From: Siphonodentalium dalli
Taxonomy: Eukaryota > Mollusca > Scaphopoda > Gadilida > Siphonodentaliidae
DNA: 64,000 nt
Direction of reading: 5' to 3'
NCBI GenBank assembly: GCA_032622095.1
Contig: CP136069.1
Span: 10,432,036 to 10,496,035 of the forward strand
Shown here: positions 35,700 to 62,500 of the stretch, one piece after another
Layout of the letters: each line of letters starts with the position of its first letter
Numbering within the stretch: the first letter of the stretch is position 1
The notes under the pieces: generated by a model
What the model was told of the DNA's origin: nothing
Seen by the model: only the letters and a program-made list of their open reading frames with translations
Database searches by the model: none
Program-made: the position numbers and the translations under genes

Positions 35700-35701
35700 T
35701 A

Positions 35702-35892: not shown

Positions 35893-35951
35893 TGTAAGTT
35901 ACACCTCTGAAGAAATACAGATCGTTCAGGGATGAGACAAAACATCTTTAA

Positions 35952-39900: not shown

Positions 39901-40795
39901 TGCCCTCCCTTGTGGGGTGTAATGAATCACATTATGACGTAGATATTACCTGCCCTCGTGGGGTGTAATGAATCACATTATGACGTAGATTTCACCTGCC
40001 CTCGTGGTGTTTATGAACTCACAATATGAAGTAGATTTCACCTGCCCTCGTGGTGTTTATGAACTCACAATATGAAGTAGATTTCACCTGCCCTCGTGGT
40101 GTTTATGAACTCACAATATGAAGTAGATTTCACCTGCCCTCGTGGTGTTTATGAACTCACAATATGACGTAGATTTTGCCTGCCCTCGTTCTGTTTATGA
40201 ACTCACATTATGACGTAGATCTCACCTGCCCTCGTTGTGTTTATGAACTCACATTATGACGTAGATCTCACCTACCCTCGTTGTGTTTATGAACTCACAT
40301 TATGACGTTGATTTTGCCTGCCCTTGTGGGGTGTAATGAATCACATTATGACGTTGATTTTGCCTGCCCTCGTGGTGTTTATGAACTCACAATATGAAGT
40401 AGATTTCACCTGCCCTCGTGGTGTTTATGAACTCACAATATGAAGTAGATTTCACCTGCCCTCGTGGTGTTTATGAACTCACAATATGAAGTAGATTTCA
40501 CCTGCCCTCGTGGTGTTTATGAACTCACAATATGACGTAGATTTTGCCTGCCCTCGTTCTGTTTATGAACTCACATTATGACGTAGATCTCACCTGCCCT
40601 CGTTGTGTTTATGAACTCACATTATGACGTAGATCTCACCTACCCTCGTTGTGTTTATGAACTCACATTATGACGTAGATTTTACCTGCCCTCGAGGGGT
40701 GTGTATGAACTCACATTATGGCGTAGATTTTACCTGCCCTCATTGTGTTTATGAACTCACATTATGACGTAGATTTTGCCTGCCCTCGTGGCCGT
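39901..40795. repeat. 46-bp satellite made from the Rapgef1 coding end
   Basis: About 19 units. Read on the minus strand each contains CCACGAGGGCAG, then GTAAAATC, GTGAAATC or GCAAAATC, then CATAATGTGAGTTCATAAAC. The unit nearest the gene is the actual end of exon 7, including the stop codon. A block of eight units is duplicated (about 40005-40320 and 40372-40690). Confidence 0.95.
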
Positions 40796-40894
40796 ATCTT
40801 CTCTGAAATCTGCCAGAGTGCTTCTTCACTGAGATAATCTTCAAAATGGTTGAGAACGGCTAATATCTTCTCGTTCTTCTTAATCTCATAGTTA
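40762..40894 (-). CDS. rapgef1: rapgef1 terminal exon 7
   Basis: Acceptor TATTTTCAG|TAAC. Encodes NYEIKKNEKILAVLNHFEDY, LSEEALWQISEKIRPRG and QAKSTS, with stop TAA at 40762-40764. The length after IRPR (six residues) is short, as expected near the C3G C-terminus. Alternatively CAG|GC or GT sites in the repeat could act as donors to a further exon; none was recognised downstream. No AATAAA on the minus strand was seen between 39663 and 39900. Confidence 0.8.
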
Positions 40895-43800
40895 CTGAAA
40901 ATAGACAATAGTTAAGATGCATTATCCGATTAATCACCCCTAAATTAAAGGTACTCAATCCGATCAGACGCTCCTAAATTACTATTTCTTTGGCTTCAGG
41001 GATAAACAATATGATTTGAGTTGAGGAACCCACTCATCAAAGCTCAGAGTGAACAGATATAAATTTTTGAAATCTGATATTTCTCGAGATATGTACTTTT
41101 TAACGCCTGGCAAATATTCGTCAAACCAAATTCTTCTCCGACCAAATTGTGAATGAAGATGGATAACTCTAAAATCAAGTGGCTTTGTGTGTCAGATATT
41201 TAATATTCCGGCCAGATTTTGTTGAACAACATGTTGATAATTAACACGTTTTGAACACATTTATACCATAGTTGACAGTGGTTAGCATTATTTTGCTGTA
41301 ATTAATTGATTCTGATAACTAGGTCTCCCATAGAAGTTGAGGCCTAAGCAGAATGAGGTCCCCAGAGGGTGAATTTGGTTATGTTAGCCCGCTATGTGGG
41401 ATAGCGTCACTAAATTCACCCTCTGGGGAAATGTCAGACACACTAAATTCAGGCTTGTGTACAGTTTGTCAAGATGCAAACAGTTCCGAAACAAACAAAT
41501 TTGACAAATAAATTTGGTGAGAATACCAGAACTAAATTTATCAAGGTATAAGAATAGAGAACGGGAGATGAATTTGTATAGTGTATCAAATATGTGATGA
41601 AATGAATCGTGAATTGAATCATAAAGAATGAATTGTGATGCTTTGAAATTTTGATGATGCATTGAATCATTTACAGGCCTAACTCACCATTTCCTGAACC
41701 TCCGCATACTGTCTAGAATGTTGAATTGTGATGCATTGAATCATTACAGGCCTAACTCACCATTTCTTGAACCTCCACATACTGTCTAGACTGTTGAATT
41801 GTGATGCATTGAATCATTACAGGCCTAACTCACCATTTCTTGAACCTCCGCATACTGTCTAGAATGTTGAATTGTGATGCATTGAATCATTACAGGCCTA
41901 ACTCACCATTTCTTGAACCTCCGCATACTGTCTAGAATGTTGAATTGTGATGCATTGAATCATTACTGGCCTAACTCACCATTTATTGAACCTCCGCATA
42001 ATGTCTAGAATGTTGAATTGTGATGCATTGAATCATTACTGGCCTAACTCACCATTTATTGAACCTCCGCATACTGTCTAGAATGTTGAATTGTGATGCA
42101 TTGAATCATTACAGGCCTAACTCACCATTTCTTGAACCTCCGCATACTGTCTAGAATGTTGAATTGTGATGCATTGAATCATTACAGGCCTAACTCACCA
42201 TTTCTTGAACCTCCGCATACTGTCTAGAATGTTGAATTGAATTGTGATGCATTGAATCATTACAGGTCTAACTCACCATTTCTTGAACCTCCGCGTACTG
42301 TCTAGAATGTTGAATTGTGATGCATTGAATCATTACAGGCCTAACTCACCATTTCTTGAACCTCCGCATACTGTCTAGAATGTTGAATTGTGATGCATTG
42401 AATCACTACAGGCCTAACTCACCATTTCTTGAACCTCCGCATACTGTCTAGAATGTTGAATTGTGATGCATTGAATCATTACTGGCCTAACTCACCATTT
42501 ATTGAACCTCCGCATACTGTCTAGAATGTTGAATTGTGATGCATTGAATCATTACAGGCCTAACTCACCATTTCTTGAACCTCCGCATACTGTCTAGAAT
42601 GTTGAATTGTGATGCATTGAATCATTACAGGTCTAACTCACCATTTCTTGAACCTCCGCATACTGTCTAGAATGTTGAATTGAATTGTGATGCATTGAAT
42701 CATTACAGGTCTAACTCACCATTTCTTGAACCTCCGCGTACTGTCTAGAATGTTGAATTGTGATGCATTGAATCATTACAGGCCTAACTCACCATTTCTT
42801 GAACCTCCGCATACTGTCTAGATTGTTGAATTGTGATGCATTGAATCATTTACAGGCTAACTCACCATTTCTTGAACCTCCGCATACTGTCTAGAATGTT
42901 GAATTGTGATGCATTGAATCATTACAGGTCTAACTCACCATTTCTTGAACCTCCGCGTACTGTCTAGAATGTTGAATTGTGATGCATTGAATCATTACAG
43001 GTCTAACTCACCATTTCCTGAACCTCCGCATACTGTCTAGATTGTTGAATTGTGATGCATTGAATCATTACAGGCCTAACTCACCATTTCTTGAACCTCC
43101 GCATACTGTCTAGAATGTTGAATTGAATTGTGATGCATTGAATCATTACAGGTCTAACTCACCATTTCTTGAACCTCCGCATACTGTCTAGACTGTTGAA
43201 TTGTGATGCATTGAATCATTACAGGCCTAACTCACCATTTCTTGAACCTCCGCATACTGTCTAGAATGTTGAATTGTGATGCATTGAATCATTACAGGCC
43301 TAACTCACCATTTCTTGAACCTCCGCATACTGTCTAGAATGTTGAATTGTGATGCATTGAATCATTACAGGTCTAACTCACCATTTCTTGAACCTCCGCA
43401 TACTGTCTAGATTGTTGAATTGTGATGCATTGAATCATTACAGGCCTAACTCACCATTTCTTGAACCTCCGCATACTGTCTAGAATGTTGAATTGTGATG
43501 CATTGAATCATTACAGGCCTAACTCACCATTTCTTGAACCTCCGCATACTGTCTAGAATGTTGAATTGTGATGCATTGAATCATTACAGGTCTAACTCAC
43601 CATTTCTTGAACCTCCGCATACTGTCTAGATTGTTGAATTGTGATGCATTGAATCATTACAGGCCTAACTCACCATTTCTTGAACCTCCGCATACTGTCT
43701 AGAATGTTGAATTGTGATGCATTGAATCATTACAGGTCTAACTCACCATTTCTTGAACCTCCGCATACTGTCTAGATTGTTGAATTGTGATGCATTGAAT

Positions 43801-46800
43801 CATTACAGGTCTAACTCACCATTTCTTGAACCTCCGCATACTGTCTAGACTGTTGAATTGTGATGCATTGAATCATTACAGGCCTAACTCACCATTTCTT
43901 GAACCTCCGCATACTGTCTAGAATGTTGAATTGTGATGCATTGAATCATTACAGGCCTAACTCACCATTTCTTGAACCTCCGCATACTGTCTAGAATGTT
44001 GAATTGTGATGCATTGAATCATTACAGGCCTAACTCACCATTTCTTGAACCTCCGCATACTGTCTAGAATGTTGAATTGTGATGCATTGAATCATTACAG
44101 GTCTAACTCACCATTTCTTGAACCTCCGCATACTGTCTAGATTGTTGAATTGTGATGCATTGAATCATTACAGGCCTAACTCACCATTTCTTGAACCTCC
44201 GCATACTGTCTAGAATGTTGAATTGTGATGCATTGAATCATTACAGGCCTAACTCACCATTTCTTGAACCTCCGCATACTGTCTAGAATGTTGAATTGTG
44301 ATGCATTGAATCATTACAGGCCTAACTCACCATTTCTTGAACCTCCGCATACTGTCTAGAATGTTGAATTGTGATGCATTGAATCATTACAGGCCTAACT
44401 CACCATTTCTTGAACCTCCGCATACTGTCTAGAATGTTGAATTGAATTGTGATGCATTGAATCATTTACTGGCCTAACTCACCATTTCTTGAACCTCCGC
44501 ATACTGTCTAGAATGTTGAATTGAATTGTGATGCATTGAATCATTTACTGGCCTAACTCACCATTTCTTGAACCTCCGCATACTGTCTAGAATGTTGAAT
44601 TGTGATGCATTGAATCATGTACAGGCCTAACTCACCATTTCTTGAACCTCCGCATACTGTCTAGAATGTTGAATTGTTGCCATCGTTTGGCGAAGTTAAT
44701 ACTCCCATCCTTGAGTAAGTCTTGGTTTCCAATGTTGATGAAGGTCAGGTCTTGTAATACTAAGCCACTGTAAAAGATAATAAGTAATACGGCTAGGTAA
44801 GGGAGACAACCCGCTATAATAAGTAATAAGGCTAGGTAAGGGAGACAACCCGCTAGGTAAGGGAGACAACCCGCTAGGGCTTCACGGGTTTTCGGTATTT
44901 ATTAACTCATCCATAAACCCTTATTTTTCCCATCGATTTGCTATTTTAAAATCATTGAGTCATACTATTTTTATCTTAGTTTAACCCTTTACCCAACAGA
45001 ATGGCCCTGTGCCAATGCATTCTCTTATATATGCGAGTCGACCATAGGTCGCCTCGCATATATAAGAGAATGCATTGGCTTAACAAATATTAAAAATGAT
45101 AAAATTGTCAAAGAATGTAGAAAAATATTATAAAAAATGTAAGAAAAAATTATAAAATTGTTAAAGAATGTAAGAAAAAATGGTAAAAATTGTTAAAAAA
45201 AAAGAATTTTTTTAGGCCAATGCATTCTCTTATATGAAGAGAATGCATTGGCACAGGGCATAACTGTAACCATCACAATGTGGTCAATGAACCGGTTCCA
45301 ATGATATCCATATTTGTATGGTGTTATTGAGACAGACCGAAGATATTTTAGGCTGTTGAAGCTTTATTTGGGCGTTTTTGGCCGCTTTGTTGGGTAAAGG
45401 GTTAAATTCGCGCACATGTGCAAATAATAGTACTGAGCGAATTTAAATTTAAGCCACTGTAAAAGATAATAAGTAATAAGGCTAGGCTAGGGTTTCACGG
45501 TTTTTCGGTATTTAGTCATACTGCGGTTTTATTTTTATGTAGTCAATATTTGATTACTTGAATAGTCAGTATATTGTGGCATAATATATTTTCTTCTTTT
45601 AGTCGGTTTTACGACAGCAAGCGTACATCATAATTAAATAGGTTAGCGCACATCATCATAGTATACGTTAGCACAAATCAACATAGGATCGGTTAGCGCA
45701 CATCATCATAGTATAGGTTAGCACAAATCAACATAGGATCGGTTAGCGCACATCATCATAGTATAGGTTAGCACAAATCAACATAGGATCGTTTAGCACA
45801 CATCATCATAGTATAGGTTAGCACAAATCAACATAGTATAGGTTAGCGCACGTCATCATAGTATTGGTTAGCGCACGTCATCATAGTATAGGTTAGCACA
45901 AATCAACATAGGATCGGTTAGCGCACATCATCATAGGATTGGTTAGAATTATTCTCGCACATCACAGGATCGTTCAGAATTATTCTCATAATTTTTAAAT
46001 TGCATTCCTTACTCGTATTTAAATTCGCAGAGTACTATTTTTTGCTCAGTGGTAAATTCACCCATTTCCACAAAAGTATTGTATCCAATGGAAGTATCGT
46101 TTCTTGGTCCAATGATAAATTTAAATAAATGGTCAGCCGACCACAATGTCCACCGACAATGTGGCAAGTCGATGCCGCTTTGTTAAAGAAATTAAAAACA
46201 ATGTTGAAATTTTCTCAGTCGAAAAGTTTAATAACTCTGTAAAAAAAAAAATCCGTCATCTATAAACATGTTGCACATATCCAATATGTGGATAACAAAA
46301 ATACTCTGAACTTTCAAATCTCTGGGATGAAATCTGTAGGAGATGATTACACCATGAAGGTACTCAAAAGTGTGACGGATGGATGTCTCGACGTCTCAAC
46401 AAACGGATGAACGGATGGACAGAGCCCATTTCTATAGTCCCCCCTTTTCTTTCAGAAAGTCGGGGGACAATAGCTAAAGATATCATTGTCATGAAATAGG
46501 ATGATAGTGACAATAACGACCGTGTAAATATGATCTGATATCAGAAGTCATCGATTATAGATCATAGTTGGGCAATGTATACAACTCATTATCCATAAAC
46601 CCTTATTTTTCCTATCGATTTGCTAATTTAAAATCTTTGAATCATACTATTTTTTATCTTAGTTTAACCCTTTACCCAACAGAACGGCCCTGTGCCAATG
46701 CATTCTCTTATATATGCGAGTCGACCATAGATCGCCTCGCATATATAAGAGAATGCATTGGCTTAACACATATTAAAAATGATAAAAAAATTTTAGGCCA

Positions 46801-49800
46801 ATGCATTCTCTTATATATGCGAGGCGACCTATGGTCGACTCGCATATATAAGAGAATGCATTGGCACAGGGCATAACTGTAACCATCACAATGTGGTCAA
46901 TGAACCGGTTCCAATGATATCCATATTTGTATGGTGTTATTGAGACAGACCGAAGATATTTTAGGCTGTTGAAGCTTTATTTGGGCGTTTTTGGCCGCTC
47001 TGTTGGGTAAAGGGTTAAATTCGCGCACATGTGGGTGTGCAAATAATAGTACTGAGTAATTTAAATTTAAATTGTTGAATGTCTGAGGCTTGGTTTGAGT
47101 TTCTTATACAGTAATGCTCTAAGTACCCCGAGAGCTTTCCGATGAATGGCAACAAGCCATATTTCCGACTAAATCCTGAAAAGTTACCCATAATTCTGCT
47201 GTGGTTAAGAAGTCGATTACTTAGAGCATTACTGTACACTAATATACGTACATGTAAGGTATGCATGGCGGGATTGTTTCGGCCAGGACCTGCCTGTAAG
47301 TTTTAAATGCAGCCGTACTATCTATCAACTGACTGAACTCCACCACAGCCTGTAAAATAAAAATAGTACATGTATCTGGAGATCAGGCCCTGAGAATAAG
47401 GTGATGTTCCCAGAGGGAGAATTTAGTGACGCTACCCCGCACAGTGGGCTAGCATCACTAAATTCACCCTCTGACGACCTCTGGGATACCTAGACTCTGA
47501 TTTAAGTTCAAGGACGGTGAATATTGTTAACTGGTTAATTTAGTGCCCAAACCATGGGATAAAGTAGTATAGAGTGTGGGTGATAGAGCATGTTACGATT
47601 GTTTGAATTTCTAAAATGTTTTCAATAGTTCCAATAACTCCTTACATTTGCGTGACTGGGTGAGAAATACATAGATAGAATGACACAAGTTTGTCATGCC
47701 TCCGGTTCTCGTTTTACCATCGTGTCACAACAAACTCGTGCAATAACGTTAACCAGTTCACACAACTGTGTTGTTCTATGTTTATTGCACACTCTGAAGA
47801 TTGCAGCTTGTAACATACTAACATTTAGGTCGATATTGTTGTATTTAATTGAACAAACATGTGCTTAATGTAGACTATACCCCATAATTTAGCGAAGACA
47901 TTTTCTGTTAAAGTTGACGTCGCCAGTGACGTTGTTGACGTAATAGGTTTGTATTGTTCAAGAACAATACACATTTTTTTTATTGAACGTTTCAATTATT
48001 CTGTATTTTGCCGTATTTCGCACAAATAAGCCATTGGGTGTGCAATAAACTGTATTACTGTCACGTCATTGGGGGAAAAGTGGAAGAGCAATCTGGCAAC
48101 AGAGCTTATATGGACATTTGGAGATGACGTCATCAGAGGTTACAGGTCAGGAAACAGGATAAAATGTAACATAGAATTTTCGTACCGGGTTTGTTAACTC
48201 TTCCTTGTTAATATTTTGGGATATACCATATAGTTCAGTGGGCAAGATGACTTTGACGGAGATACATAGGGTATGTAATTACAAGGGCGTCGGATCATCG
48301 GATGGGTGATGGAGCATGTTACGATTGTTTGCATTTCTAAAATGTTTTCAATAGTTCCAATGACTCCCTACATTTGCGTGACTGGGTGAGAAATACACGT
48401 CATTGGCAGGTATGGCATAGATAAATACACTGTATTACTGTCACGTCATTGGCAGGTATGGCATAGATAAATACACTGTATTACTGTCACGTCATTGGCA
48501 GGTATGGCGTAGATAAATACACTGTATTACTGTCACGTCAATGGCAGGTATGGCGTAGATAAATACACTGTATTACTGTCGCGTCATTGGCAAGTATGGC
48601 ATAGATAAATACACTGTATTACTGTCACGTCAATGGCAGGTATGGCGTAGATAAATACTGTATTACTGTCACGTCATTGGCAGGTATGGCGTAGATAAAT
48701 ACACTGTATTACTGTCACATCATTGGCAGGTATGGCGTAGATAAATACACTGCATTACTGTCACGTCATTGGCAGGTATGGCGTAGATAAATACACTGTA
48801 ATTCTGTCACGTCATTGGCAGGTATGGCATAGATAAATACACTGTAATTCTGTCACGTCATTGGCAGGTACGGCATAGATAAATACACTGTATTACTGTC
48901 ACGTCATTGGCAGGTATGGCATAGATAAATACACTGTATTACTGTCACGTCATTGGCAGGTATGGCATAGATAAATACACTGTCACGTCATTGGCAGGTA
49001 TGGCGTAGATAAATACACTGTATTACTGTCACGTCATTGGCAGGTACGGCATAGATAAATACACTGTATTACTGTCACGTCATTGGCAGGTATGGCGTAG
49101 ATAAATACACTGTATTACTGTCACGTCATTGGCAGGTATGGCGTAGATAAATACACTGTATTACTGTCACGTCATTGGCAGGTATGGCATAGATAAATAC
49201 ACTGTATTACTGTCACGTCATTGGCAGGTATGGCGTAGATAAATACACTGTATTACTGTCACGTCATTGGCAGGTATGGCATAAATAAATACACTGTATT
49301 ACTGTCACGTCATTGGCAGGTATGGCATAGATAAATACACTGTATTACTGTCACGTCATTGGCAGGTATGGCGTAGATAAATACACTGTATTACTGTCAC
49401 GTGATTGGCAGGTATGGCATAGATAAATGCACTGTATTACTGTCACGTCATTGGCAGGTATGGCGTAGATAAATGCAGCAAGACAAAAACAGCATGCTAG
49501 GCTAAAATTTTAGGCGTTATTCTAATAGACCTAAAGTTAGATTTTAAAAATTAGGATACAGCATCTTCAACCTCACACACACGACAAGCCAAGAAGAGTG
49601 AATCTAAATTGTCAAATGCAATAATCAAATCAAATTGAATCAGCAGCCCGATTCACGAATCAAATCTCGAAGCTTCGCAGGTCCCCGAGAAGTTAGTTAC
49701 AACCGTGTCAGGACTGTCTACATTCAGTATCTTCAGGATAATTGTAAGTGTCCCCGAAGTCCACAAATGTTATCACAATAACTGAATAAGCTGATTATAG

Positions 49801-52800
49801 TGTGTCAATCATTTGCAGAATGAGGCTCCCATAGGGTGAATTTAGTGATGATATCCCATATAGCAGGCTGGCATCGCCAAATTCACCCTCTGGGGACCTC
49901 ATTCTGCATGGTCTTATCTGCTATGGGAGACCGAGACTCAGATTGAAGTTCCCAAAGGTGAATATTTTGATGTACACCCTTTGGGAACATCGATTATGAA
50001 ATGTGTCATCTGCCAATTTGGGGATATAGAGAAACTAAACTAAAAATAAGAAATAGAATCTATGTGAGAAGTTTCTATAGAAATTTTATAATAAAAAAAC
50101 TTTCCAGAGAAGATGAGGCCTAAGCAGAATGAGGTCAACAGAGGGTGAAATTTAGTGATGCTATGCGGGATAGTGTCACTAAATTCACCGTCTGGGAACC
50201 TCATTCTGCAATGGCAGACACCTTATTCTCAGGCCTGAAGACCATAAGAGTCCATTCAGAGTTGACTGAAGAAAATGATGCCATCGTATTCAGTGGTTGG
50301 TATAACTGTCCCCTATTGTATTGTTTTTATAAGTACCTCTGTGTTTTGTTTCTGCCATTCGAGTCTTCTAACTGGAGCCGAGCTCAGTGCAGATAGAATT
50401 GCCAGATAGGAATTAAAATTGTTCAGTTTTCTGAGGTGCTGAAATATAACATAATGTCAAAAACTAAATAGCAAGTCTCTATCAATATGTTCAAAGTACA
50501 GTCCATTCTGCTTAACCCTTTACCCAACAGAAGGGCCCTGTGCCAATGCATTCTCTTATATATGCGAGTCGACCATAGGTCGCCTCGCATATATAAGAGA
50601 ATGCATTGGCTTAACACATTAAAAATTATAAAATTGTTAAAGAATGTAAGAAAAATGGTAAAAAGTGTTAAAAAAAGTTTTTGTTTAGGCCAATGCATTC
50701 TCTTATATATGCGAGGCGACCTATGGTCGACTCGCATATATAAGAGAATGCATTGGCACAGGGCATAACTGTAACTATCACAATGTGGTCAAGGAGCCGG
50801 TTCCAATGATATCCATATTTGTATGGTTCTATTGAGACAGACCGAAGATATTTTAGGCTGTTGAAGCTTTATTTGGCCGGTTTGTTGGGTAAAGGGTTAA
50901 TAGCAAAGCGTGGTACAAGGGTTTTTCTATTCAATAAATTGAATATTCTTTTATACGAAATGATCTAATATTTAGCATACTTTTTATTGAAACGGAAGCA
51001 TGAATGGCTGGTCGGTAATTAAATACGAGGCATGTTTATCGGCATATCAGTTATATATCGTTTGTTGAAAAAACTGATTATTAATCATATTCTTCATAAT
51101 TGTCGAAAAGAACAGTATTTTGCAAGATATTTGAGTAAATTCCTGGAAACCCTTATTCAAATAAGTGGTTTTAGTCAAAGTTCTATGCAAATATGAGAAA
51201 ATAAAATTATATAACTTTTCAAACTCTTCATTCATTATAGTTTGTTGGAAAAATATTGGAAGCCATAGTATTTTACATAATGTAAACAGACAACAAACCG
51301 GAAGTCAAAGGTCACCTGGCACTATTTCCTGTTATTAAACGAACGTTTAATATCACAATTTATAGAATGGGTTTATTGAATGGAATAAGGCTAGGATCAT
51401 GTAATAAATATAATTGTAATTCAAGTTGAATATCTGCCACTGAAACACAGATTATGATTGGCCTGGAGCCGCTAACTTTAGTTTTTGATTCACAAAGAAT
51501 CAATTGCTGATCAGAAGACATATTTTAAGGGAGCACTGTGTCATTGAAAAGTCACATAAATTACGTCACTGCATGCGCTTCCAGGAGTCGCATAAACGAG
51601 TCAAACATAACGTTGTTTTCAATATATACGGTTTGATAACATGAAGTTGTTTTAGCACGGTTACGACTAACCCCAAAGAACGCACCCAGAGATTGAGGAA
51701 GTTGTTTTAGCGCGGTTACGACTAACCCCATGGAACGCACCCAGAGATTTTATCACCGCAAGAAGGAAATCTCACTTTAAAGCATCTAATGTCAATAAAA
51801 AGTGTTTTTCATGAAGTGTCTTTAAAAAATTTTGGTGGATTGAATTACAATGGGGATAAAAGGTCGGCTGACCACAGTGTCCCCCAACAACGTGGCAAGT
51901 CGATGCCGCTTTGTTAAAGAAATTTTTTTAAATGTTTAAATGTTCTAAGTCGAAAGGGTTAATAATTCATTAAAAAAAATATTTTTCCGTCATCTATATA
52001 CATGTTGCACATCTCCAATATGTGGGTAACAATAGTCTGAAGTTTCAAATATCTACGATCAAAACTGTAGGAGGAGTTGATTACACCATGAAGGTACCCT
52101 CATACAGAAAATTATAAAAATGTTTTTCAAAGTCAAAAGGCCCATAACTCTGGGAAAAATCATTGAATCAAACTCAAATTCGAACTTGACCTGTATTTTG
52201 ATATGAACGACCCACAAAAAAACAGAATTTCCAATTAAACAATCCAAACATGAGTTATCGTCCGGAAACCAAAGAAAAAACAAGAAAACTCTAGGAAAAA
52301 TCATCGGATCAAACTCAAATTCGAACTTGACCTGTATTTTGATATGAACGACCCACAAAAAAACAGAATTTCCAATTAAACAATCCAAACATGAGTTATC
52401 GTCCGGAAACCAAAGAAAAAACAAGAAAACTCTAGGAAAAATCATCGGATCAAACTCAAATTTGAACTCAACTTGTATCTTGATGACGGTATTTGCAATT
52501 AAAGGATCCAAACTTGAGATTTCATCCGGAAACCGACAAAAGTGAGAAACTTTCTAAGTAAAAAAAAAGTTGAAAAAAGGAAAATAACTCCATAAAAGAA
52601 CATCAGATCAAACCCAGAATTGCAGAGCACCTGTGTTCATGGTTGAGACACCTACATACCAAGTTTCAATCAAATCGGATGATCATTACTGGAGTTATAA
52701 CTCCGGATGGACGGACGCACACACGGACGGATGGACAGACGAGACGCACGGACGGACGAGACGAACGGGGACGCACGGGGCTGATTACAATAGTCCCCCG

Positions 52801-55800
52801 AAAATAAATTTTTTGGGGAACAATAAAAAATACCCTGTTCCATTGGCAAGCTGGTCGTTCACAATAAACTATTTTCATGCTCGAATCACCGAATATCCAA
52901 CTCAATAGAGTATGTTTATCCCCTAAATATATATATAAAGATACGTACCCGTAGTATTTTGATATATTTAATTAAGTATTTTTCTCTGTCCTTTGGATCC
53001 TCCTGGGTGAGTATTTTGGTCCTACAACTGTAAAAACGAAGGAAACCAATTACGTGATTTACTGTAAAAATGAAGGAAACCAATTACTTGTAAAAACGAA
53101 GGAAACCAATTACGTGTAAAAACGAAGGAAACCAATTACGTGTAAAAACGAAGGAAACCAATTACGTGTAAAAACGAAGGAAACCAATTACGTGATTTAA
53201 CTGTAAAAACGAAGGAAACCAATTACGTGATTTAACTGTAAAAACGAAGGAAACCAATTACGTGATATTCAATGAATATAACATTACACAGGTGATAACA
53301 TTTCACAGGTGATAACATTTCACAGGTGATAACATTACACAGGTGATAACATTACACAGGTGATAACATTACACAGGTGATAACATTACACAGGTGATAA
53401 CATTACACAGGTGACTACATTACACAGGTGATAACATTACACAGGTGATAACATGATAACATTTGCAGATTTACAGGAAAAAATGTCATGAGGCTCTTTA
53501 GTTTCATTCAAAATTGAGTTCAGAAACACTACTTATGTTCAAGCCTTGAAATTAGTACTGTACGTCGGATCCGATAATCCAAATCCGAATTCGGATCCAG
53601 ATTGGATTCAGAATTGTCGTCGGATTCGGATTCAGAGTCCGATTTTCAAAAATGCTGTCGGATTCGGATCGTCTGGGTCGGACCGTACAATCCGATCTCC
53701 ATCATGTTACATTTATGGGGTGGATAACTTGGATTCTAAGTTTCTAACTCAGTCTCAGATTAAACGTAGGGCCTATATAAATGTAGGCTACTCTTACTGC
53801 CATCTTAGTGTGTCAAGGTCAGATGAAATTTCTAGTAAATCTGACTTCACGATTCCGCGAAAACACATTTTCTCAGAAGTTAGACTACATACTCCAATCC
53901 GTCCAGTCGTTCCAGCCTCAATCAACTTAAATTACAGAGCAGTACAGACTACAGAGTACAGATGTTTCGTTAGTTCGTAACTTCATACCACCATGTCACT
54001 TACACTGTATGTACTACGTAGTGTCTTACACTTACAGTACTTAGGTAAGTTAGGACAAAGTTCCAGATTCCCGAATCCCCAATTCCCGATCATCCCGTTA
54101 AATTCTCTAACTTTTCTTATATGCGACTACACTTCACCCCAATGACCCATCCCTTGACCTCAGCAACAAAAGTTTGATGTTGAGACACACATTTTACATG
54201 ATATTGTCACACTATTTGCAATTTATATGTTGCGGATTCGGGTCGGATTTCGGATCGGATTTAGCGATACACATCGGATTCGGATTCGGATTCAAAATTG
54301 ACATCGGATTTCGGATTCGGATCGGATTCAAAATAGCCATCGGATTCGGATTTTCAAAAATGCTGTCGGATCGGATTTTGGGTTCATGTCGGATCCGACG
54401 CACAGCACTACTTGAAATAGGGTGTCTGTCATTTGCAGAATGAGGTCCCCAGAGGGTGAATTTAGTGATGCTACCCTGCATAGCGGGCTAGCATCACCAA
54501 ATTCACCCTCTGGGAACCTCATTCTTCTGAGGTGTAAGCAAAATGAGGTCCCCAGAGGGTGAATTTGGTGATGCTAGCCCGCTATGCGGGGTAGCATCAC
54601 TAAATTCACCCTCTGGGGACCTCATTCTGCAAATGACAGACACCCTATTTCAAGCCTTGCTTATGTTAGAGGCCCACAATTTATGCATCCAATAGTAAAT
54701 GTTTAAAATCTTATCTTCCAATGTCTCCCCATGTATAATATCTGAGGTGGTAATGTTGAAGTTATAATTATTATGGTCAATATGGATATAGTGTGTGATA
54801 TTTGCAGAAGGAGGTTCCCAGAGGGTGAATTTAGTGATGTTATCCCACACAATGGGCTAGCATAACCAAATTCACCCTCTGGGAACATCATTCTGATTGG
54901 CCTCATCTACTATGGGAGACCTAGACAGATATTTAAGTTGCCAGATGGTGAATATTGTGATGTGCACCCATTGGGCACCTCAATTATGCAATGTTTCATC
55001 TGCCAATTTGGGGATTTAGAGAAACTAAACTAAAAAAGAAACAGCAAATTTCTGAAGAAACAATAAAAAACTGGTTAACCCTTTACCCAACAAACCGGCC
55101 AAAACCGGCCAAATAAAGCTTCAACAGCCTAAAATATCTTCCGTCTGTCTCAATAAAACCATACAAATATGGATATCATTGGAACCGGCTCCTTGACCAC
55201 ATTGTGATAGTTACAGTTATGCCCTGTGCCAATGCATTCTCTTATATATGCGAGTCGACCATAGGTCGCCTCGCATATATAAGAGAATGCATTGGCCTAA
55301 AAAAAATCTTTTTTTAACACCTTTTACCATTTTTTCTTACATTCTTTAACAATTTTATAATTTTTAATGTGTTAAGCCAATGCATTCGCTTATATATGCG
55401 AGGCGACCTATGGTCGACTCGCATATATAAGAGAATGCTTTGGCACAGGGCCCTTCTGGTGGGTAAAGGGTTAATTTGATAAATGATAATAAAGATACTT
55501 TAGGTCCATAGAGGGTGAATTTGTGGGCAAAGTTGGCAAGCTTTACTAAATTCACCCTCTGGGGACCTCATTCTGCTAGTGACCGGCACCATATTTGCAG
55601 ACCTGGGCTCATGGCCAATTAAAATAAGATAAATATCAAGATAAATATTATTTAAAGTTGGAGATAAACATTATACAAAACCAAGCCTGGATATAGTGTG
55701 TCGGTCATTTGCAGATTGAGGTCCCCAGAGGGTGAATATAGTGACACTATCCCGCACAGTGGGCTAGCATCACCAAATGCACCCTCTTGGGACCACATTC

Positions 55801-58469
55801 TGCATGGCCTTATCTGCTATGGGGGGATATAGACTCAGATTGAAGTTCCCAAATGGTTAATATTGTGATGTGTACCCATTGGGAACCTGCAATGCGCCGT
55901 CTGTCAATTTGGGGATATAGAGAAACTAAACTAAAAAAAGAAATAGAATCTAAGTTTCTATAGAAATTTGATAATAAAGAACTTTCCAGAGAAGTTGAGG
56001 CCTAAGCAGAATGAGGTCCCCATAGGGTGAATTTAGTGATGCTAGCCCGCTATGCATGACAGCGTCAATAAATTCACCCTCTGGGGACCTCAATAACAGG
56101 CAACTTACTCTCAGGCCTGAAACTGACCGACTATGGCAGTTAGAAATATAACTCGTTACGGGGAGAGGGGGAGGGGTACAGTAATGCCCTAAATAATCGA
56201 CCCCTTAACCAAGCAGAATTATGGGTAATTTTTCAGGATTTAGTCGGAAATATGGCTTGTAGCCATTCATCGGAAAGCTCTCACTGAGAAAGGGTTAATG
56301 GAAACATTAGTAAATTTCAGTTATCAGAAACATTTTATAAAAGCCTTTTATTAGAGTTTGGTCATAACTAACTGTTGTCAACTAGTGGAAATACAGTAAT
56401 GCTCTAATTAATCGACTCCTTAAACACAGCAGAATTATGGGTAACTTTTCAGGATTTAGTCGGAAATATGGCTTGTTGCCATTCATCGGAAAGCTCTTGG
56501 GGAGAGCTTTCCAATGAATGGCAACAAGCCATATTTCCGACTAAATCCTGAAAAATTACCCATAATTCTGCTGTGATTAAGGAGTCGATTACTTGGGGTA
56601 TTACTGTATAAATATACTAACCAATAGGACATATTGTTAAAATGCTCTGTGAATGTGGTTAAGTTTGGACTCAATTCTTCTGACTGTTCTTTGGCCCATA
56701 ACAATACCTCTGGAATCTGGAATAGAAAACTTAAGTTTAAAACACATTATCCAGGGGTGGGGGACCAATTTTTTTGTTCTGGGCACGTATGCCGGGGTGG
56801 GTGGGTGTTCTATGGGACAAACAAATAATTTTTTCCGCAACTCAAATGTTTTTTTCCTGCAAGTCTTTTGACTGTTTTTGCAATGAGTTTGGCTTAAAAC
56901 ACCTTAGAATAAGAGAAATAATGTAATTCTAACTGGTAAACTGACTGCAGGCAGTTATCGTGTTGTATTTTGTTGCAAATTTTGAAATCCAAGATGGCCA
57001 CTGGCACGCATGTTTTTTTGGCCGTATGACCTCAAATAGACTCGTTCCTATTTACATGTTAATGTTCACATCATGACAAATAGTATGCACAGAAATTCAT
57101 ATACAGCTGTTTACAGTGAATTCCCCCACAAATCTCTGTTTTAGTGTTAAAAGGGGGGTGGGTGTCCAAAAATGGTCGGAAAAAACTGCAGAAAACGAAA
57201 ACAAATTTGGACGCAGGGGTGGGTGGGTCCCAACAAGGGTCGAAAGTAAAATATCAGCATACGTGCCTGAATTTTTTTTCCGACCCCCCCCACCTGCATT
57301 ATCAAGGATTATATAGCTCAAAGACATAAAACGTCATTATCAAGCCTGATTATATATAGTGTGTCTGTCAATTGCAGAATGAGGTCCTCAGAGGGTGAAT
57401 TTAGTGATGCTATCCAAATTCACCCTCTGGGGTCCTCATTCTGCTTAGGCTTAAACTGCTATAAAAGATCCAGGATAAATTGAAGTTCTCTAGTTAAAGT
57501 TGGTGATGTTCACCCATAGCAGATGACAGACAACCAAACAGACAATACAATTTCAACCTTTGTTGAACTTATTATCTGAACATTTCTTAAGGAAATTATT
57601 AATCCATAGTAATTTTGAACCTGTTAGATACAGAGTTTTGAACCTGTTAGATACAGAGTTTTGAACATGTTAGACACAGAGTTTTGAACCTGTTAGATAC
57701 AGAGTTTTGAACCTGTCAGACACAGAGATTTAAACATGTTAGATACAGAGTTTTGAACCTGTTAGATACAGTTTTGAACAAGATAGACACAGAGTTTTGA
57801 ACCTGTTAGATACAGAGTTTTGAACCTCTTAGATACAGAGTTTTGAACATGTTAGACACATAGTTTTGAACTTGTTAGATACAAAGTTTTTAACCTCTTA
57901 GATACAGAGTTTTGAACAGGTTAGACACATCGTTTTGAACAGGTTAGATACAGAGTTTTGAACAGGTTAGATACTGAGTTTTAACCTGTTAGATACAGAG
58001 TTTTGAACCTGTTAGATACAGAGTACTAAATTTGGGTCCCAATTTCAAGGCATACCGCCACAGTGGCAAACTGAAACTAAACCCAAATTTAGAAACAAAG
58101 AAGGATAACTCTAAAATAGAAAAACAACATCATTTGCCGCTCTGTTGAAAGCAGTTGTGACGGTGAACATCAGTACCAAATTATATTCAGTTCTGACAAC
58201 CCAATGGCTGAGATATATGACCAGACAGACAGACGAATGGCCTGATGGACGAACAGACGGACAAAGTAAATCCAGTAAGCACCCCATTTTTTTTTTCCTT
58301 GAAAAGTGGGAGTATAAACATTTTAGTCATATGGAATTTATTCTTACAATTTACAATTTTATCTTTCGATAATTCACAACTCACCTCAATTCGGTTGAAG
58401 AGCTCAGCATCAAGTAGCGTCATCTGCTCAGCTATATCATGTGACTTTATCTGAAGCAAGTCCATTGGG
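40762..58469 (-). CDS. rapgef1: Rap guanine nucleotide exchange factor 1 (C3G), catalytic 3' part, seven exons
   Basis: Exons 58469-58385, 56716-56622, 53021-52949, 50438-50337, 47349-47252, 44767-44636 and 40894-40762 join in phase, all with GT donors and AG acceptors, giving 238 residues and a TAA stop. The product spans a whole RasGEF (CDC25) domain: an IAEQMTLLDAELFNRIE start, IPEVLLWAKEQSEELSPNLT, HFNNMSYW, NFNSYLAILSAL, PPCIPY, GLVLQDLTFINIG, RWQQFNILDSMRRF and EEALWQISEKIRPR. The last two blocks are, from memory, closest to C3G. C3G activates Rap1 at adhesion and growth-factor sites after Crk recruitment; the Crk-binding proline-rich and RasGEF-N regions are upstream and not in view. 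Introns are 1.7-3.7 kb, full of MITEs and satellites. Other Rap/Ras GEFs are less likely. RasGEF call near certain; C3G strong. Confidence 0.85.
40895..41321 (-). other. rapgef1 intron 6, unique part
   Basis: Unique AT-rich intron sequence next to the exon 7 acceptor. Nothing else recognised. Confidence 0.5.
41322..41457. mobile_element. hAT-like MITE family G, partial
   Basis: One GAATGAGGTCCCCAGAGGGT hairpin with a GCCCGCTATGTGGGA loop and the right end AAATTCAGGCTTG. Confidence 0.75.
41650..44690 (-). repeat. 73-bp satellite of exon 6 end plus splice donor, about 41 copies
   Basis: On the minus strand the unit is CAATTCAACATTCTAGACAG, TATGCGGAGGTTCAAGAAATG, then GTGAGTTAGGCCTGTAATGA and TTCAATGCATCA. 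The first 40 bases are the end of exon 6 and the rest is intron. The GTGAGT donor is retained in practically every copy. Units with an extra GAATT (78 bp) recur. The gene-proximal unit is the true junction at 44636. Confidence 0.97.
44636..44767 (-). CDS. rapgef1: rapgef1 exon 6
   Basis: Acceptor ATCTTTTACAG|TGG and donor AAATG|GTGAGT. Encodes GLVLQDLTFINIGNQDLL, INFAKRWQQFNILDSMRRF and KK, with a split Cys codon. Reading past the donor gives an immediate in-frame TGA. The last 40 exon bases and the donor are repeated about 41 times in the following intron. Confidence 0.92.
44785..44880. repeat. Short local duplications near the exon 6 acceptor
   Basis: GGCTAGGTAAGGGAGACAAC with CCGCT occurs three times, and AATAAGTAATAAGGCTAGG twice. 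Confidence 0.85.
44985..45401. mobile_element. piggyBac-like MITE family P, copy 6 (rapgef1 intron 5)
   Basis: TTAA at 44981-44984 and 45402-45405. The second hairpin is collapsed to its stem ends (TCTCTTATATGAAGAGA). About 70 bp of left and 40 bp of right flank are shared with the copy at 46668. Confidence 0.92.
45449..45492 (-). repeat. Second copy of the exon 6 acceptor region
   Basis: AAGCCACTGTAAAAGATAAT AAGTAATAAGGCTAGG repeats 44762-44797, so the minus strand has a duplicate TTTTACAG|TGGCTT site about 690 bp upstream of the real one. Confidence 0.85.
45641..45955. repeat. 25-bp satellite
   Basis: GGTTAGCGCACATCATCATAG TATA alternates with GGTTAGCACAAATCAACATAG GATC; about 12 units. 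Confidence 0.93.
46091..46460. repeat. Dispersed repeat D with GGATGGAC tail
   Basis: GGTCAGCCGACCACAATGTC and GGCAAGTCGATGCCGCTTTG are shared with 51850 onward. It ends in CGGATGAACGGATGGACAGA and TATAGTCCCCCC...GGGGGACAATA. Confidence 0.75.
46668..47014. mobile_element. piggyBac-like MITE family P, copy 7 (rapgef1 intron 5)
   Basis: TTAA at 46664-46667 and 47015-47018. Two intact hairpins, with most of the spacer between them deleted. Shares flanks with copy 6. Confidence 0.92.
47109..47234. mobile_element. Family T palindromic MITE, shortened
   Basis: TA|CAGTAATGCTCTAAGTA at left and CATTACTG|TA at right. The left arm is mostly deleted. Its right end is 17 bp from the exon 5 splice donor. 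Confidence 0.85.
47252..47349 (-). CDS. rapgef1: rapgef1 exon 5
   Basis: Acceptor TATTTTACAG|GCT and donor ACAT|GTACGT. Encodes AVVEFSQLIDSTAAFKTYR, QVLAETIPPCIPY and two bases of the next codon. PPCIPY is the hallmark before the DLTF block. A family T MITE lies 17 bp inside the downstream intron. Confidence 0.9.
47383..47510. mobile_element. hAT-like MITE family G, partial
   Basis: AGGCCCTGAGAATAAGG, then one GGGAGAATTTAGTGACGCTA hairpin and a degenerate tail. Confidence 0.65.
47511..48379 (-). other. rapgef1 intron 4, mostly unique
   Basis: A block of about 95 bp (GAGCATGTTACGATTGTTTG to GACTGGGTGAGAAATACA) at 47578-47672 is repeated at 48304-48398. CTGTATTACTGTCACGTCAT at about 48049 is an isolated copy of the satellite unit that follows. 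TGACGTCA lies at about 48124. Confidence 0.7.
48390..49475. repeat. 46-bp satellite in rapgef1 intron 4, about 23 copies
   Basis: The unit is GGCAGGTATGGCGTAGATAA then ATACACTGTATTACTGTCAC and GTCATT. Two copies are shorter. Not adjacent to an exon. Confidence 0.96.
49476..49792 (-). other. rapgef1 intron 4, unique
   Basis: Nothing recognised. I checked the minus strand for an exon and found none. Confidence 0.4.
49793..50237. mobile_element. hAT-like MITE family G, long form
   Basis: AGTGTGTCAATCATTTGCAG to GCAGACACCTTATTCTCAGG. Two hairpins flank a T-rich centre shared with 36700-36900. Confidence 0.75.
50337..50438 (-). CDS. rapgef1: rapgef1 exon 4
   Basis: Acceptor ATATTTCAG|CAC and donor GAG|GTACTT. 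Exactly 34 codons, HLRKLNNFNSYLAILSAL followed by SSAPVRRLEWQKQNTE. This is the most conserved RasGEF stretch. The usual ALDSAP reads ALSSAP here. Confidence 0.9.
50516..50896. mobile_element. piggyBac-like MITE family P, copy 8 (rapgef1 intron 3)
   Basis: TTAA at 50512-50515 and 50897-50900. Two intact hairpins. About 77 bp from the exon 4 acceptor. Confidence 0.93.
50901..51640 (-). other. rapgef1 intron 3, unique part
   Basis: AT-rich. No exon, RNA gene or repeat recognised. Confidence 0.4.
51643..51749. repeat. 55-bp tandem duplication
   Basis: GAAGTTGTTTTAGCACGGTT to GAACGCACCCAGAGATT, twice, with three differences. Confidence 0.9.
51850..52815. repeat. Dispersed repeat D with internal ~141-bp tandem units
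   Basis: Starts with the GTCGGCTGACCAC / AAGTCGATGCCGCTTTG block. CAAACTCAAATTCGAACTTG recurs at about 52169, 52311 and 52451. It ends in GGACGGACGCACACACGG and TAGTCCCCCG. No transposase frame. Confidence 0.75.
52949..53021 (-). CDS. rapgef1: rapgef1 exon 3
   Basis: 73 bp encoding TKILTQEDPKDREKYLIKYI and KILR. Donor CGG|GTACGT. The acceptor consistent with the phase and with W at the junction is TTGTAG|G; the CAG six bases earlier would give Cys-Cys-Arg and shift the alignment. The polypyrimidine tract and that CAG belong to the adjacent array. Confidence 0.8.
53026..53265 (-). repeat. 26-35-bp array of the exon 3 acceptor region, about 9 copies
   Basis: The minus-strand unit is CGTAATTGGTTTCCTTCG TTTTTACAG, with or without TTAAATCA. 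It copies the polypyrimidine tract and CAG that precede exon 3; no exon sequence is included. Confidence 0.93.
53272..53460. repeat. 17-bp satellite
   Basis: ATAACATTACACAGGTG in about ten copies, adjoining the previous array. Confidence 0.93.
53540..54659. mobile_element. hAT-like MITE family G, split by another hAT-like element
   Basis: CAAGCCTTGAAAT and ATTTCAAGCCTTG ends are flanked by CTTATGTT (53532-53539 and 54660-54667), an 8-bp duplication. Without the insert the copy is about 254 bp with two hairpins. Confidence 0.88.
53553..54410. mobile_element. Nested hAT-like element with CGGATT repeats
   Basis: The ends TAGTACTGTACGTCGGATCC and inverted GGATCCGACGCACAGCACTA are flanked by the 8-bp duplication CTTGAAAT (53545-53552 and 54411-54418). 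Both subterminal regions are rich in TCGGATTCGGAT. The 144-codon frame inside has no transposase motif. Confidence 0.9.
54784..55606. mobile_element. hAT-like MITE family G, long form, split by family P
   Basis: GATATAGTGTGTGATATTTG at left and GACCGGCACCATATTTGCAG at right, with hairpins at both ends. Interrupted at 55075-55474. Confidence 0.75.
55079..55470. mobile_element. piggyBac-like MITE family P, copy 9, nested (rapgef1 intron 2)
   Basis: TTAA at 55075-55078 and 55471-55474. Both hairpins present. Confidence 0.93.
55682..56119. mobile_element. hAT-like MITE family G, long form
   Basis: CAAGCCTGGATATAGTGTGT to CAACTTACTCTCAGGCCTG, with a hairpin near each end. Confidence 0.75.
56179..56283. 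mobile_element. Family T MITE, half copy
   Basis: TA|CAGTAATGCCCTAAATAATC through GCCATTCATCGGAAAGCTCTC. Single arm. Confidence 0.8.
56394..56606. mobile_element. Family T palindromic MITE, complete
   Basis: TA|CAGTAATGCTCTAATTAATC at left, TATTACTG|TA at right. Arms of about 100 bp pair almost perfectly. It ends 15 bp from the exon 2 donor. Confidence 0.9.
56622..56716 (-). CDS. rapgef1: rapgef1 exon 2
   Basis: Acceptor TCTATTCCAG|ATTCCA and donor TATTG|GTTAGT. Encodes IPEVLLWAKEQSEELSPNLT then TTFTEHFNNMSYW (the W codon is split), a conserved start block of RasGEF domains. A family T MITE begins 15 bp inside the downstream intron. Confidence 0.9.
56740..57320. repeat. Dispersed repeat fragments in rapgef1 intron 1
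   Basis: GGGGTGGGTGGGTG-type blocks occur at about 56795 and 57215, with TTTTTTTCCGACCCCCCC at 57275. An ATCCAAGATGGCC block at about 56989 resembles the repeat near 24.6 kb. Family unknown. Confidence 0.4.
57341..57533. mobile_element. hAT-like MITE family G, partial
   Basis: CAAGCCTGATTATATATAGT and a loop-less GAATGAGGTCCTCAGAGGGT hairpin. The right end is missing. Confidence 0.7.
57605..58025. repeat. 23-bp satellite in rapgef1 intron 1
   Basis: TTTTGAACCTGTTAGATACAGAG in about 18 units, diverged. Confidence 0.93.
58030..58310. repeat. Dispersed repeat with GACAGACAGACG tail
   Basis: AAATTTAGAAACAAAGAAGG, TTGCCGCTCTGTTGAAAGCA and the tail CCAGACAGACAGACGAATGG. Related in layout to repeat D. 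Confidence 0.6.
58385..58469 (-). CDS. rapgef1: rapgef1 exon 1 of those visible
   Basis: Acceptor ATTTCAG|CCC at 58470 and donor GAG|GTGAGT at 58384. Phase: one base, then 28 codons, PMDLLQIKSHDIAEQMTLL and onward to LFNRIE. This is the entry to the catalytic domain. Its first 35 bases and acceptor are copied in the array just upstream. Confidence 0.85.
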
Positions 58470-59296
58470 CTGAAATGTTTAATAATTAACTAATTTAGTT
58501 ACTGTCTATCATGTGACTTTATCTGAAGCAAGTCCATTGGGCTGAAATGTTTAATAGTTAACTAATTTAGTTACTGTCTATCATGTGATTTTATCTGAAG
58601 CAAGTCCATTGGGCTGAAATGTTTAATAGTTAACTAATTTAGTTACTGTATATCATGTGATTTTATCTGGAGCACATCCATTGGGCTGAAATGTTTAATA
58701 ATTAACTAATTTAGTTACTGTCTATCATGTGATTTTATCTGAAGTAAGTCCATTGGGCTGAAATGTTTAATAGTTAACTAATTTAGTTACTGTATATCAT
58801 GTGATTTTATCTGAAGTAAGTCCATTGGGCTGAAATGTTTAATAGTTAACTAATTTAGTTACTGTCTATCATGTGATTTTATCTGAAGCAAGTCCATTGG
58901 GCTGAAATGTTTAATAGTTAACTAATTTAGTTACTGTCTATCATGTGATTTTATCTGAAGCAAGTCCATTGGGCTGAAATGTTTAATAATTAACTAATTT
59001 AGTTACTGTCTATCATGTGATTTTATCTGAAGTAAGTCCATTGGGCTGAAATGTTTAATAGTTAACTAATTTAGTTACTGTATATCATGTGACTTTATCT
59101 GGAGCACATCCATTGGGCTGAAATGTTTAATAGTTAACTAATTTAGTTACTGTCTATCATGTGATTTTATCTGGAGCACATCCATTGGGCTGAAATGATT
59201 AATAGTTAACTAATTTAGTTACTGTCTATCATGTGATTTTATCTGGAGCACATCCATTGGGCTGAAATGTTTAATAATTAACTAATTTAGTTACTC
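58434..59296 (-). repeat. 72-bp satellite of exon 1 acceptor plus exon start, about 12 copies
   Basis: The minus-strand unit is AACTATTAAACATTTCAG then CCCAATGGACTTGCTTCAGA and TAAARTCACATGATA. About 37 bases are intron and 35 are exon 1. Acceptor CAG is kept in every unit read. The unit nearest the gene is the true junction. Confidence 0.96.
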
Positions 59297-59568: not shown

Positions 59569-62500
59569 AGGTTACACTGGTGTAAATAAGGTTCCGAGAG
59601 ACCTCTAGCGGATGCGGGAGGAATATATAGGAGAGAATAAAATAGACACTGGGCCCTGATTGGTCAATAGCCTTGTGTGCTTTTCACATAAAAAAATCAT
59701 CACACCTCTTCCCTATGATTTCCCATAGGTAAAATAACCATTGGCACAGGAATTAACCCTTTGTAGTGAAGTTTGAATTTTTTGGTGTGGTCTAAAATAT
59801 GACTGTATTTTTTTATGCGGTTCTGACACTAGTTACGAAAACATAAGATTTAAAGGCGAATTCCCTGCTAGACAGACATGATTTTTTTGTGTAAAAAGTT
59901 TCCCAAAATGTCAATTTTTCAGATTTAAAGAAAATTTTGGACCCAACATTTATATTGCCAACACTATACGCTAAAACGTTAGCACTGAGGCCTATGGAAA
60001 ACATTTACACCAGTGTAACCTAAAGGGAAAAAATAGCTTTTTATCATTTTTGATTCCTGGGAGTCACTTTAAAGCATTTTAATGCATTTTACAGAGCCTG
60101 GTCTTTCAGTCCAATGAATATCTCATGCTTGATGTGGCTATTCTTGCTGCTGATGTCTTCTTTCACTTACATCAGCCAAAAAAATAGTAAGATTTTTCAT
60201 AAAAAATGCCAATTTTTCAAGGTATTTTCAAAATTTTCAAGGTGGTAATAGTCACATGATAATGCAAATGACCCATAACATGGGCATGTCAACGACACAT
60301 ATATCAATTGTTATAAGAACCTAATTTGACAAGTATTTTGGATTTTATAGCCAGTGATATACAGATATATATCATAAAAGTGTGTCATTTCCACTGGTGG
60401 GTATGGTCATTTGAAGGTTAATAGCACTAAAACTTGGACACATTTAAGAAAATGCTTCAGCAATTCAAAGAGAGCATATCTTTATTCAACTAATTCAATA
60501 TACACCCACATCCAGTTATCTTGGATCACCCTTGCAGACCTGAAAATGTCATATTTTATTCTTCAATGTGCTGATAAAGTCACGCGCTTGATGCTCAGCT
60601 GATCAGATCTGGACTCAATGACCTCACATCACCAGAAGTTCTCTCTTGGAAAGAATATTGAACAGTCTTCCATAGCTGATCCAAGTTTGCAACACCAGAC
60701 CCCTAAAACTGAGTGAAAATGGGGCCTGAACATGACTGGTGGTGGAAAATTGTGCTTTTTTGATGAATAATTTGTTAAAGAGGGTGGGGTTAAATTGTGT
60801 GTGATAAATAAAGAACCACAGAAGTGATATTGTTTTTGAACACATTTTTTCCATTGATGGGCAATTCTGAAGAAATGTAGGGAGTTACAATTATTCCGCG
60901 AAAAAGCGGGCTATCGCTTTAGGTTACACTGGTGTAAATAAGGTTCCGAGAGACCTCTAGCGGATGCGGGAGGAATATATAGGAGAGAATAAAATAGACA
61001 CTGGGCCCTGATTGGTCAATAGCCTTGTGTGCTTTTCACATAAAAAAATCATCACACCTCTTCCCTATGATTTCCCATAGGTAAAATAACCATTGGCACA
61101 GGAATTAACCCTTTGTAGTGAAGTTTGAATTTTTTGGTGTGGTCTAAAATATGACTGTATTTTTTTATGCGGTTCTGACACTAGTTACGAAAACATAAGA
61201 TTTAAAGGCGAATTCCCTGCTAGACAGACATGATTTTTTTGTGTAAAAAGTTTCTCAAAATGTCAATTTTTCAGATTTAAAGAAAATTTTGGACCCAACA
61301 TTTATATTGCCAACACTATACGCTAAAACGTTAGCACTGAGGCCTATGGAAAACATTTACACCAGTGTAACCTAAAGGGAAAAAATAGCTTTTTATCATT
61401 TTTGATTCCTGGGAGTCACTTTAAAGCATTTTAATGCATTTTACAGAGCCTGGTCTTTCAGTCCAATGAATATCTCATGCTTGATGTGGCTATTCTTGCT
61501 GCTGATGTCTTCTTTCACTTACATCAGCCAAAAAAATAGTAAGATTTTTCATAAAAAATGCCAATTTTTCAAGGTATTTTCAAAATTTTCAAGGTGGTAA
61601 TAGTCACATGATAATGCAAATGACCCATAACATGGGCATGTCAACGACACATATATCAATTGTTATAAGAACCTAATTTGACAAGTATTTTGGATTTTAT
61701 AGCCAGTGATATACAGATATATATCATAAAAGTGTGTCATTTCCACTGGTGGGTATGGTCATTTGAAGGTTAATAGCACTAAAACTTGGACACATTTAAG
61801 AAAATGCTTCAGCAATTCAAAGAGAGCATATCTTTATTCAACTAATTCAATATACACCCACATCCAGTTATCTTGGATCACCCTTGCAGACCTGAAAATG
61901 TCATATTTTATTCTTCAATGTGCTGATAAAGTCACGCGCTTGATGCTCAGCTGATCAGATCTGGACTCAATGACCTCACATCACCAGAAGTTCTCTCTTG
62001 GAAAGAATATTGAACAGTCTTCCATAGCTGATCCAAGTTTGCAACACCAGACCCCTAAAACTGAGTGAAAATGGGGCCTGAACATGACTGGTGGTGGAAA
62101 ATTGTGCTTTTTTGATGAATAATTTGTTAAAGAGGGTGGGGTTAAATTGTGTGTGATAAATAAAGAACCACAGAAGTGATATTGTTTTTGAACACATTTT
62201 TTCCATTGATGGGCAATTCTGAAGAAATGTAGGGAGTTACAATTATTCCGCGAAAAAGCGGGCTATCGCTTTAGGTTACACTGGTGTAAATAAGGTTCCG
62301 AGAGACCTCTAGCGGATGCGGGAGGAATATATAGGAGAGAATAAAATAGACACTGGGCCCTGATTGGTCAATAGCCTTGTGTGCTTTTCACATAAAAAAA
62401 TCATCACACCTCTTCCCTATGATTTCCCATAGGTAAAATAACCATTGGCACAGGAATTAACCCTTTGTAGTGAAGTTTGAATTTTTTGGTGTGGTCTAAA

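Follow-up and report, generated by a model that had tools for sequence, protein, structure and literature searches.

Why should several exon edges of a single gene each carry a tandem array that resembles that very edge? The question is raised by a 64,000-nucleotide stretch of DNA from the scaphopod mollusc Siphonodentalium dalli (GenBank assembly GCA_032622095.1, contig CP136069.1, positions 10,432,036 to 10,496,035 of the forward strand), which we call the window and in which all positions below are counted. Its minus strand encodes the RasGEF domain of Rapgef1/C3G in seven visible exons. A first-pass annotation of the letters had proposed that arrays at exons 1, 3, 6 and 7 are each made of copies of their own boundary, and that such repeats belong to no named class. 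The second statement did not hold. Minisatellites that span exon-intron boundaries have been described as mirages in the amphioxus Adh3 and globin genes (PMC3087553), with the name credited to a 2002 paper (PMC3087553, PMC3902484). When repeat units were aligned with exon edges, the exon 1 array and the exon 6 donor array fitted the definition of mirages, so that they seem to be a known kind of repeat in a new lineage.

The gene model on which this comparison depends was assembled from the following exons.

58385..58469, minus strand: exon 1 of those visible (joined frame; tblastn with Lottia and Mytilus homologs)
56622..56716, minus strand: exon 2, both edges free of arrays (joined frame; edge comparison)
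52949..53027, minus strand: exon 3, whose first base gives the Cys of a split codon (joined frame; alignment of relatives)
50337..50438, minus strand: exon 4, both edges free of arrays (joined frame; edge comparison)
47252..47349, minus strand: exon 5, both edges free of arrays (joined frame; edge comparison)
44636..44767, minus strand: exon 6 (joined frame)
40762..40894, minus strand: exon 7, up to the stop codon (joined frame)

Joined, the seven exons of the first-pass annotation do form one open frame of 240 amino acids ending in a stop codon, provided that the authentic junctions are used. AG precedes all seven exons and GT follows the first six. Identity of the protein is 76% with Mytilus GRF2 and 77% with a Lottia protein, and 28 distinct sequences of Ras and Rap exchange factors with solved structures were recognised as relatives of the domain. 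A 19-row tree grouped the gene with Mytilus, Lottia and Elysia, with support of 81/90, under the star threshold. A mollusc-annelid group with support of 96/92 enclosed it, while a tunicate and four vertebrates stood apart; no amphioxus row was included. It is because the gene groups with molluscs that we speak of a new lineage.

The arrays and duplicates at exon edges are these.

58435..59295, minus strand: 72-bp array at exon 1, 12 copies, authentic copy last (tandem-repeat listing, unit alignment)
41655..44677, minus strand: 73-bp array at the exon 6 donor, 41 copies, authentic copy first (tandem-repeat listing, unit alignment)
39907..40791, minus strand: 46-bp array at exon 7, 19 copies (tandem-repeat listing, unit alignment)
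53028..53266, minus strand: 26/34/35-bp array at exon 3, 8 units, authentic unit last (tandem-repeat listing, unit alignment)
44777..44878, minus strand: 39/21-bp array that stops 9 bp before exon 6 (tandem-repeat listing)
45450..45492, minus strand: exon 6 acceptor duplicated once (43 bp, 93%), including 7 exon bases

The tandem-repeat listing agreed with the periods and positions previously given for the arrays at exons 1, 3, 6 and 7. The proposal that each copies its own boundary was borne out by unit-edge alignment for exons 1, 6 and 7 and only in part for exon 3, where the repeated sequence is the pyrimidine tract.

At exon 1 the unit consists of 37 intron and 35 exon bases, that is, the acceptor plus the exon start, and therefore spans the exon-intron boundary as a mirage does. 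TTTCAG/CC was present in 12 of 12 copies. Identity of the exon part rose from 31/35 in the far copies to 35/35 beside the exon (rho 0.69, P 0.013). The donor array of exon 6 likewise spans its boundary, with a unit of 41 exon and 32 intron bases (exon end plus donor) repeated 41 times over about 3 kb. All 41 copies conserved ATGGTGAGT, so that the AG/GT splice signals were retained in every donor of this array, as in all 12 acceptors of the exon 1 array. The 40 spacings between its copies were 73 bp in 34 cases, 74 in 1, 78 in 3 and 79 in 2. A longer form near GTA(A/C)ATG occurred in copies 1-3, in the last copy and also in copy 25, and the mean copy-to-copy difference was lowest at lag 6 (lags 1-19). 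Misuse of the exon 6 donor would be costly, since read-through past it would meet a stop one codon later and yield a protein ending in RRFKKW.

The acceptor side of exon 6 added two features to the four arrays already noted, namely the 43-bp duplicate and the 39/21-bp array, whose units contain an upstream portion of the acceptor region.

Exon 7 presents a different case. Its unit comprises 30 bases for the final nine codons with their stop, and 16 bp beyond. The first-pass annotation had described the unit as last codons plus stop. The nine codons were indeed in the unit, but TAA was kept at the stop position in only 11 of 19 copies, the other 8 having TAT. Because the unit covers a stop codon and no splice junction, it resembles mirages in form only; the array is a coding-end array, an analogue of mirages. 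None of the 19 polymorphic positions distinguished copies 4-9 from copies 12-17; such an eight-copy higher-order repeat marks multi-unit exchange.

The exon 3 array reproduces the pyrimidine tract of the exon 3 acceptor, and its match includes no more than 2 exon bases. An earlier description as polypyrimidine tract plus CAG fitted only half of the units: CAG was present in 4 of 8, the authentic unit included. With so little exon sequence in the unit, this array does not span the boundary in the manner of a mirage.

To compare arrays with edges directly, we scored 9 unit consensuses against 14 edges of 120 bases, with 100 shuffles per unit; this extended to all 14 edges an earlier control of 50 shuffles that had used the seven acceptor edges alone. 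The edge scores of the 72-, 73-, 35- and 39-bp units and of the 46-bp unit at the stop codon were reached by 0 of 100 shuffles. The four remaining units, two of which come from the following arrays, behaved otherwise.

53278..53454, minus strand: 17-bp array next to the exon 3 array, no exon-edge match (edge comparison, shuffles)
48396..49474, minus strand: 46-bp array in intron 4, no exon-edge match (edge comparison, shuffles)

Their edge scores were equalled by 15/100 shuffles for the 25-bp unit, 73/100 for the 23-bp unit, 10/100 for the 46-bp unit of intron 4 and 96/100 for the 17-bp unit, so these four match no visible edge beyond the shuffled range. The first-pass annotation was thus right that the 23-, 25- and 46-bp intron satellites lack junctions. 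Its view that seeding occurred repeatedly and independently is also supported: the units of the edge arrays are unrelated in sequence to each other, with two arrays copying splice junctions, one copying a coding end and two more lying against acceptors.

We then asked how often arrays would meet edges by chance. Arrays were chosen by hand from the tandem-repeat listing; nested rows were merged, and an array was kept when it had at least 3 copies, a unit that was not short and a length of about 85 bp or more. For each of the 9 arrays, a single unit was given a random position relative to 14 edges, the stop included, in 20,000 draws per test. Three of the 9 overlapped both sides of an edge by 7 bp or more, against an expectation of 0.19 in 39300-64000 (P 0.0008) and 0.25 in 39907-59295 (P 0.0014); with 18 arrays over the whole window, 3 were seen and 0.16 expected (P 0.0004). 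With a minimum overlap of 1 bp per side, 4 of 9 arrays spanned an edge (P 0.00005-0.0003). Either 4 or 5 arrays lay within 10 bp of an edge, depending on the Tandem Repeats Finder row chosen near exon 6, with P at most 0.0005 for 4; 5 of 9, obtained with the 39-bp row, was reached in 0 of 20,000 draws. When the 13 splice edges were considered alone, 2 of 9 arrays spanned one with 7 bp or more per side, against 0.18, 0.24 and 0.15 expected in the same three settings (P 0.012, 0.023 and 0.008), a modest excess. None of these P values is a clean probability, as the tests are post hoc and concern one gene that was picked for looking odd.

We think it probable that the arrays are mirage-type minisatellites which arose by ordinary tandem duplication and were tolerated because an intact working junction remained at the exon end. 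A short piece of DNA that happened to overlap an exon edge would have been duplicated in tandem, and the array would then have grown by slippage and unequal exchange, one or several units at a time, with copies accumulating on the intron or 3'-untranslated side of the edge. The unit at the exon end would stay the working junction, be it the last acceptor, the first donor or the first stop, and the remaining copies would be decoy sites passed over by normal splicing. We infer both this order of events and the disregard of decoys by the splicing machinery. All four edge arrays have their working junction at the exon end, and since the copy there stays intact, tolerance of the arrays requires no new process. 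The block repeat of exon 7, the end variants of exon 6 and the gradient of exon 1 fit unequal exchange. The odd forms at the ends of the exon 6 array are roughly what would be predicted if array ends escape homogenisation. The mirages of amphioxus are built in the same way, and regular splicing is reported to proceed undisturbed there (PMC3087553, PMC3902484).

Three observations weigh against this account. Microhomology at the founding duplications is weak, amounting to 8 bp at exon 6 (P 0.048) and 7 bp at exon 7 (P 0.22 for at least 6), both against one null drawn from this region, and to 3 and 4 bp at exons 1 and 3; at these lengths we rejected it as strong evidence for a founding duplication. 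Tolerance may also be incomplete, since exon 3 begins with a change at a near-invariant residue. The codon split by intron 2 (window 53027 and 56622) encodes Cys, whereas Trp was found in 56 of 58 relatives with a residue at this place (60 of 120 listed proteins aligned). The difference lies in the base that opens exon 3 and adjoins the array. An alternative TAG 6 bases further would keep the Trp but lose two residues, including an Arg conserved in 57 of 59. Because T also follows CAG in the three other CAG-bearing units, the array may have converted this base; a sequencing error or an allele could equally be involved. Finally, the excess over uniform seeding (P 0.0004-0.0014; 0.008-0.023 for splice edges only) leaves room for a junction bias.

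Such a bias might come from a process aimed at splice junctions, through stalled transcription, R-loops or spliceosome-associated breaks, that starts tandem duplications there more often. It would account for the 3 of 9 arrays with 7 bp or more on either side of an edge where 0.19-0.25 are expected, for the 4 of 9 with 1 bp or more, and for the 5 of 9 within 10 bp of an edge, a number unmatched in 20,000 draws; two of the six donors are also followed, after 13 and 15 bp, by the start of an element with inverted ends. All of this comes from one gene selected for its oddness, however, and at splice edges only the P values are 0.008-0.023. Moreover, at 9 of the 14 edges there is no second spanning copy and no adjoining array, four arrays match no junction, and the units share no sequence with one another. 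We regard targeting as unlikely, and would say much the same of its extension, in which exon edges would be preferred birthplaces of minisatellites through a transcription- or splicing-linked process and arrays would write back into the exon; the exon 3 array would then have converted the first exon base and so changed Trp to Cys.

That the copies are kept by selection as a bank of decoy splice sites, slowing or tuning the splicing of exons 1 and 6 and giving, for example, the short protein ending in RRFKKW, seems to us very improbable. The 9-base donor is intact in 41 of 41 exon 6 copies and the acceptor core in 12 of 12 exon 1 copies, but copies were located by patterns around those motifs (at most 2 mismatches), which favours intact ones. 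Amino acids are changed by 7 of 7 kinds of exon-part variant at exon 6, by 10 of 14 at exon 7 and by 1 of 5 at exon 1. Because most kinds at exons 6 and 7 are of this sort, recent homogenisation suffices to explain the intact motifs. Coding constraint on the copies was likewise rejected, the synonymous kinds being 4 of 5 (exon 1), 0 of 7 (exon 6) and 4 of 14 (exon 7). Tandem arrays are often mis-sized in assemblies, and these were seen in one assembled sequence. An assembly artefact is nevertheless quite improbable, given the ordered variants between copies, the spacings of 73, 74, 78 and 79 within one array and the block repeat in another; several unrelated arrays would all need to be wrong.

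If the arrays at exons 1 and 6 are mirages formed by tolerated duplication, how do they compare with those already described? In amphioxus, splicing is reported to be undisturbed, the repeats are unstable in length, instability at Adh3 is also somatic, and a role in intron gain has been proposed (PMC3087553). The Adh3 mirages, with units of 10-72 bp and splicing reported undisturbed (Canestro et al. 2002, via PMC3087553), differ from the present case, in which a mollusc-like gene has up to 41 copies over 3 kb and three edge arrays, one at a stop codon. In the globin genes BflGb6 and BflGb9, as here, both 5' and 3' exon edges are hit and concerted evolution spares the array ends, although BflGb6 has units of 150-160 bp in 6 and 3 copies in two haplotypes and BflGb9 a single 157-bp duplicate (PMC3087553). 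PGBD5 and TnC are further amphioxus mirage genes (PMC3902484); the PGBD5 repeats differ from ours in being imperfect copies, the 108-bp one a triplication, and in belonging to another phylum. Tandem duplication or repetition at an intron-exon boundary is likewise on record for the potato RdRp gene (PMC4974935) and for human internal tandem repeats (PMC2812944), in both cases with a new or modified intron reported. In the open literature, which was the scope of our search, the name mirage was met for such repeats in two papers, both on amphioxus; a stickleback paper also has the word once. A search aimed at mussels gave no such repeats in the titles or abstract starts of the 15 papers listed out of 47.

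The window is rich in repeats generally. The arrays chosen make up about 28% of positions 1-64000 (18 arrays, about 17.9 kb), and those outside the Rapgef1 gene include a 48-bp unit in 22 copies, a 34-bp unit in 44 and a 33-bp unit in 40. Upstream of exon 1, in 59813-62708, the same open reading frames (ORFs) are found twice, 1352 bp apart (60054/61406; 60378/61730), and a unit of about 1.35 kb is therefore repeated there. The element found near donors has copies at 56392-56608 and 47110-47236, starting 13 and 15 bp past the donors of exons 2 and 5, with inverted ends like ACAGTAAT and ATTACTGT; further matches lie at 56177-56282, 11541-11638 and 35700-35896. Two long transposon-type ORFs were present at 2781-4469 (minus strand) and 13352-14746 (plus strand). 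The former, which looks Polinton-like, had no Pfam match. In the latter, the single Pfam match obtained for ten chosen ORFs was to zf-RVT, below the curated cut-off, and a protein search gave 83 matches, the best at 36% identity over 97%, with reverse-transcriptase proteins matched at about that level. Rfam at gathering thresholds gave no match in 39300-60600.

If our reading is correct, mirages would be no amphioxus oddity but would extend to a distant phylum, with several in one gene and sizes of up to 3 kb. Siphonodentalium would then offer a second lineage in which to test how the splicing machinery selects one junction among dozens of almost identical copies, and whether arrays of this kind contribute to intron gain.
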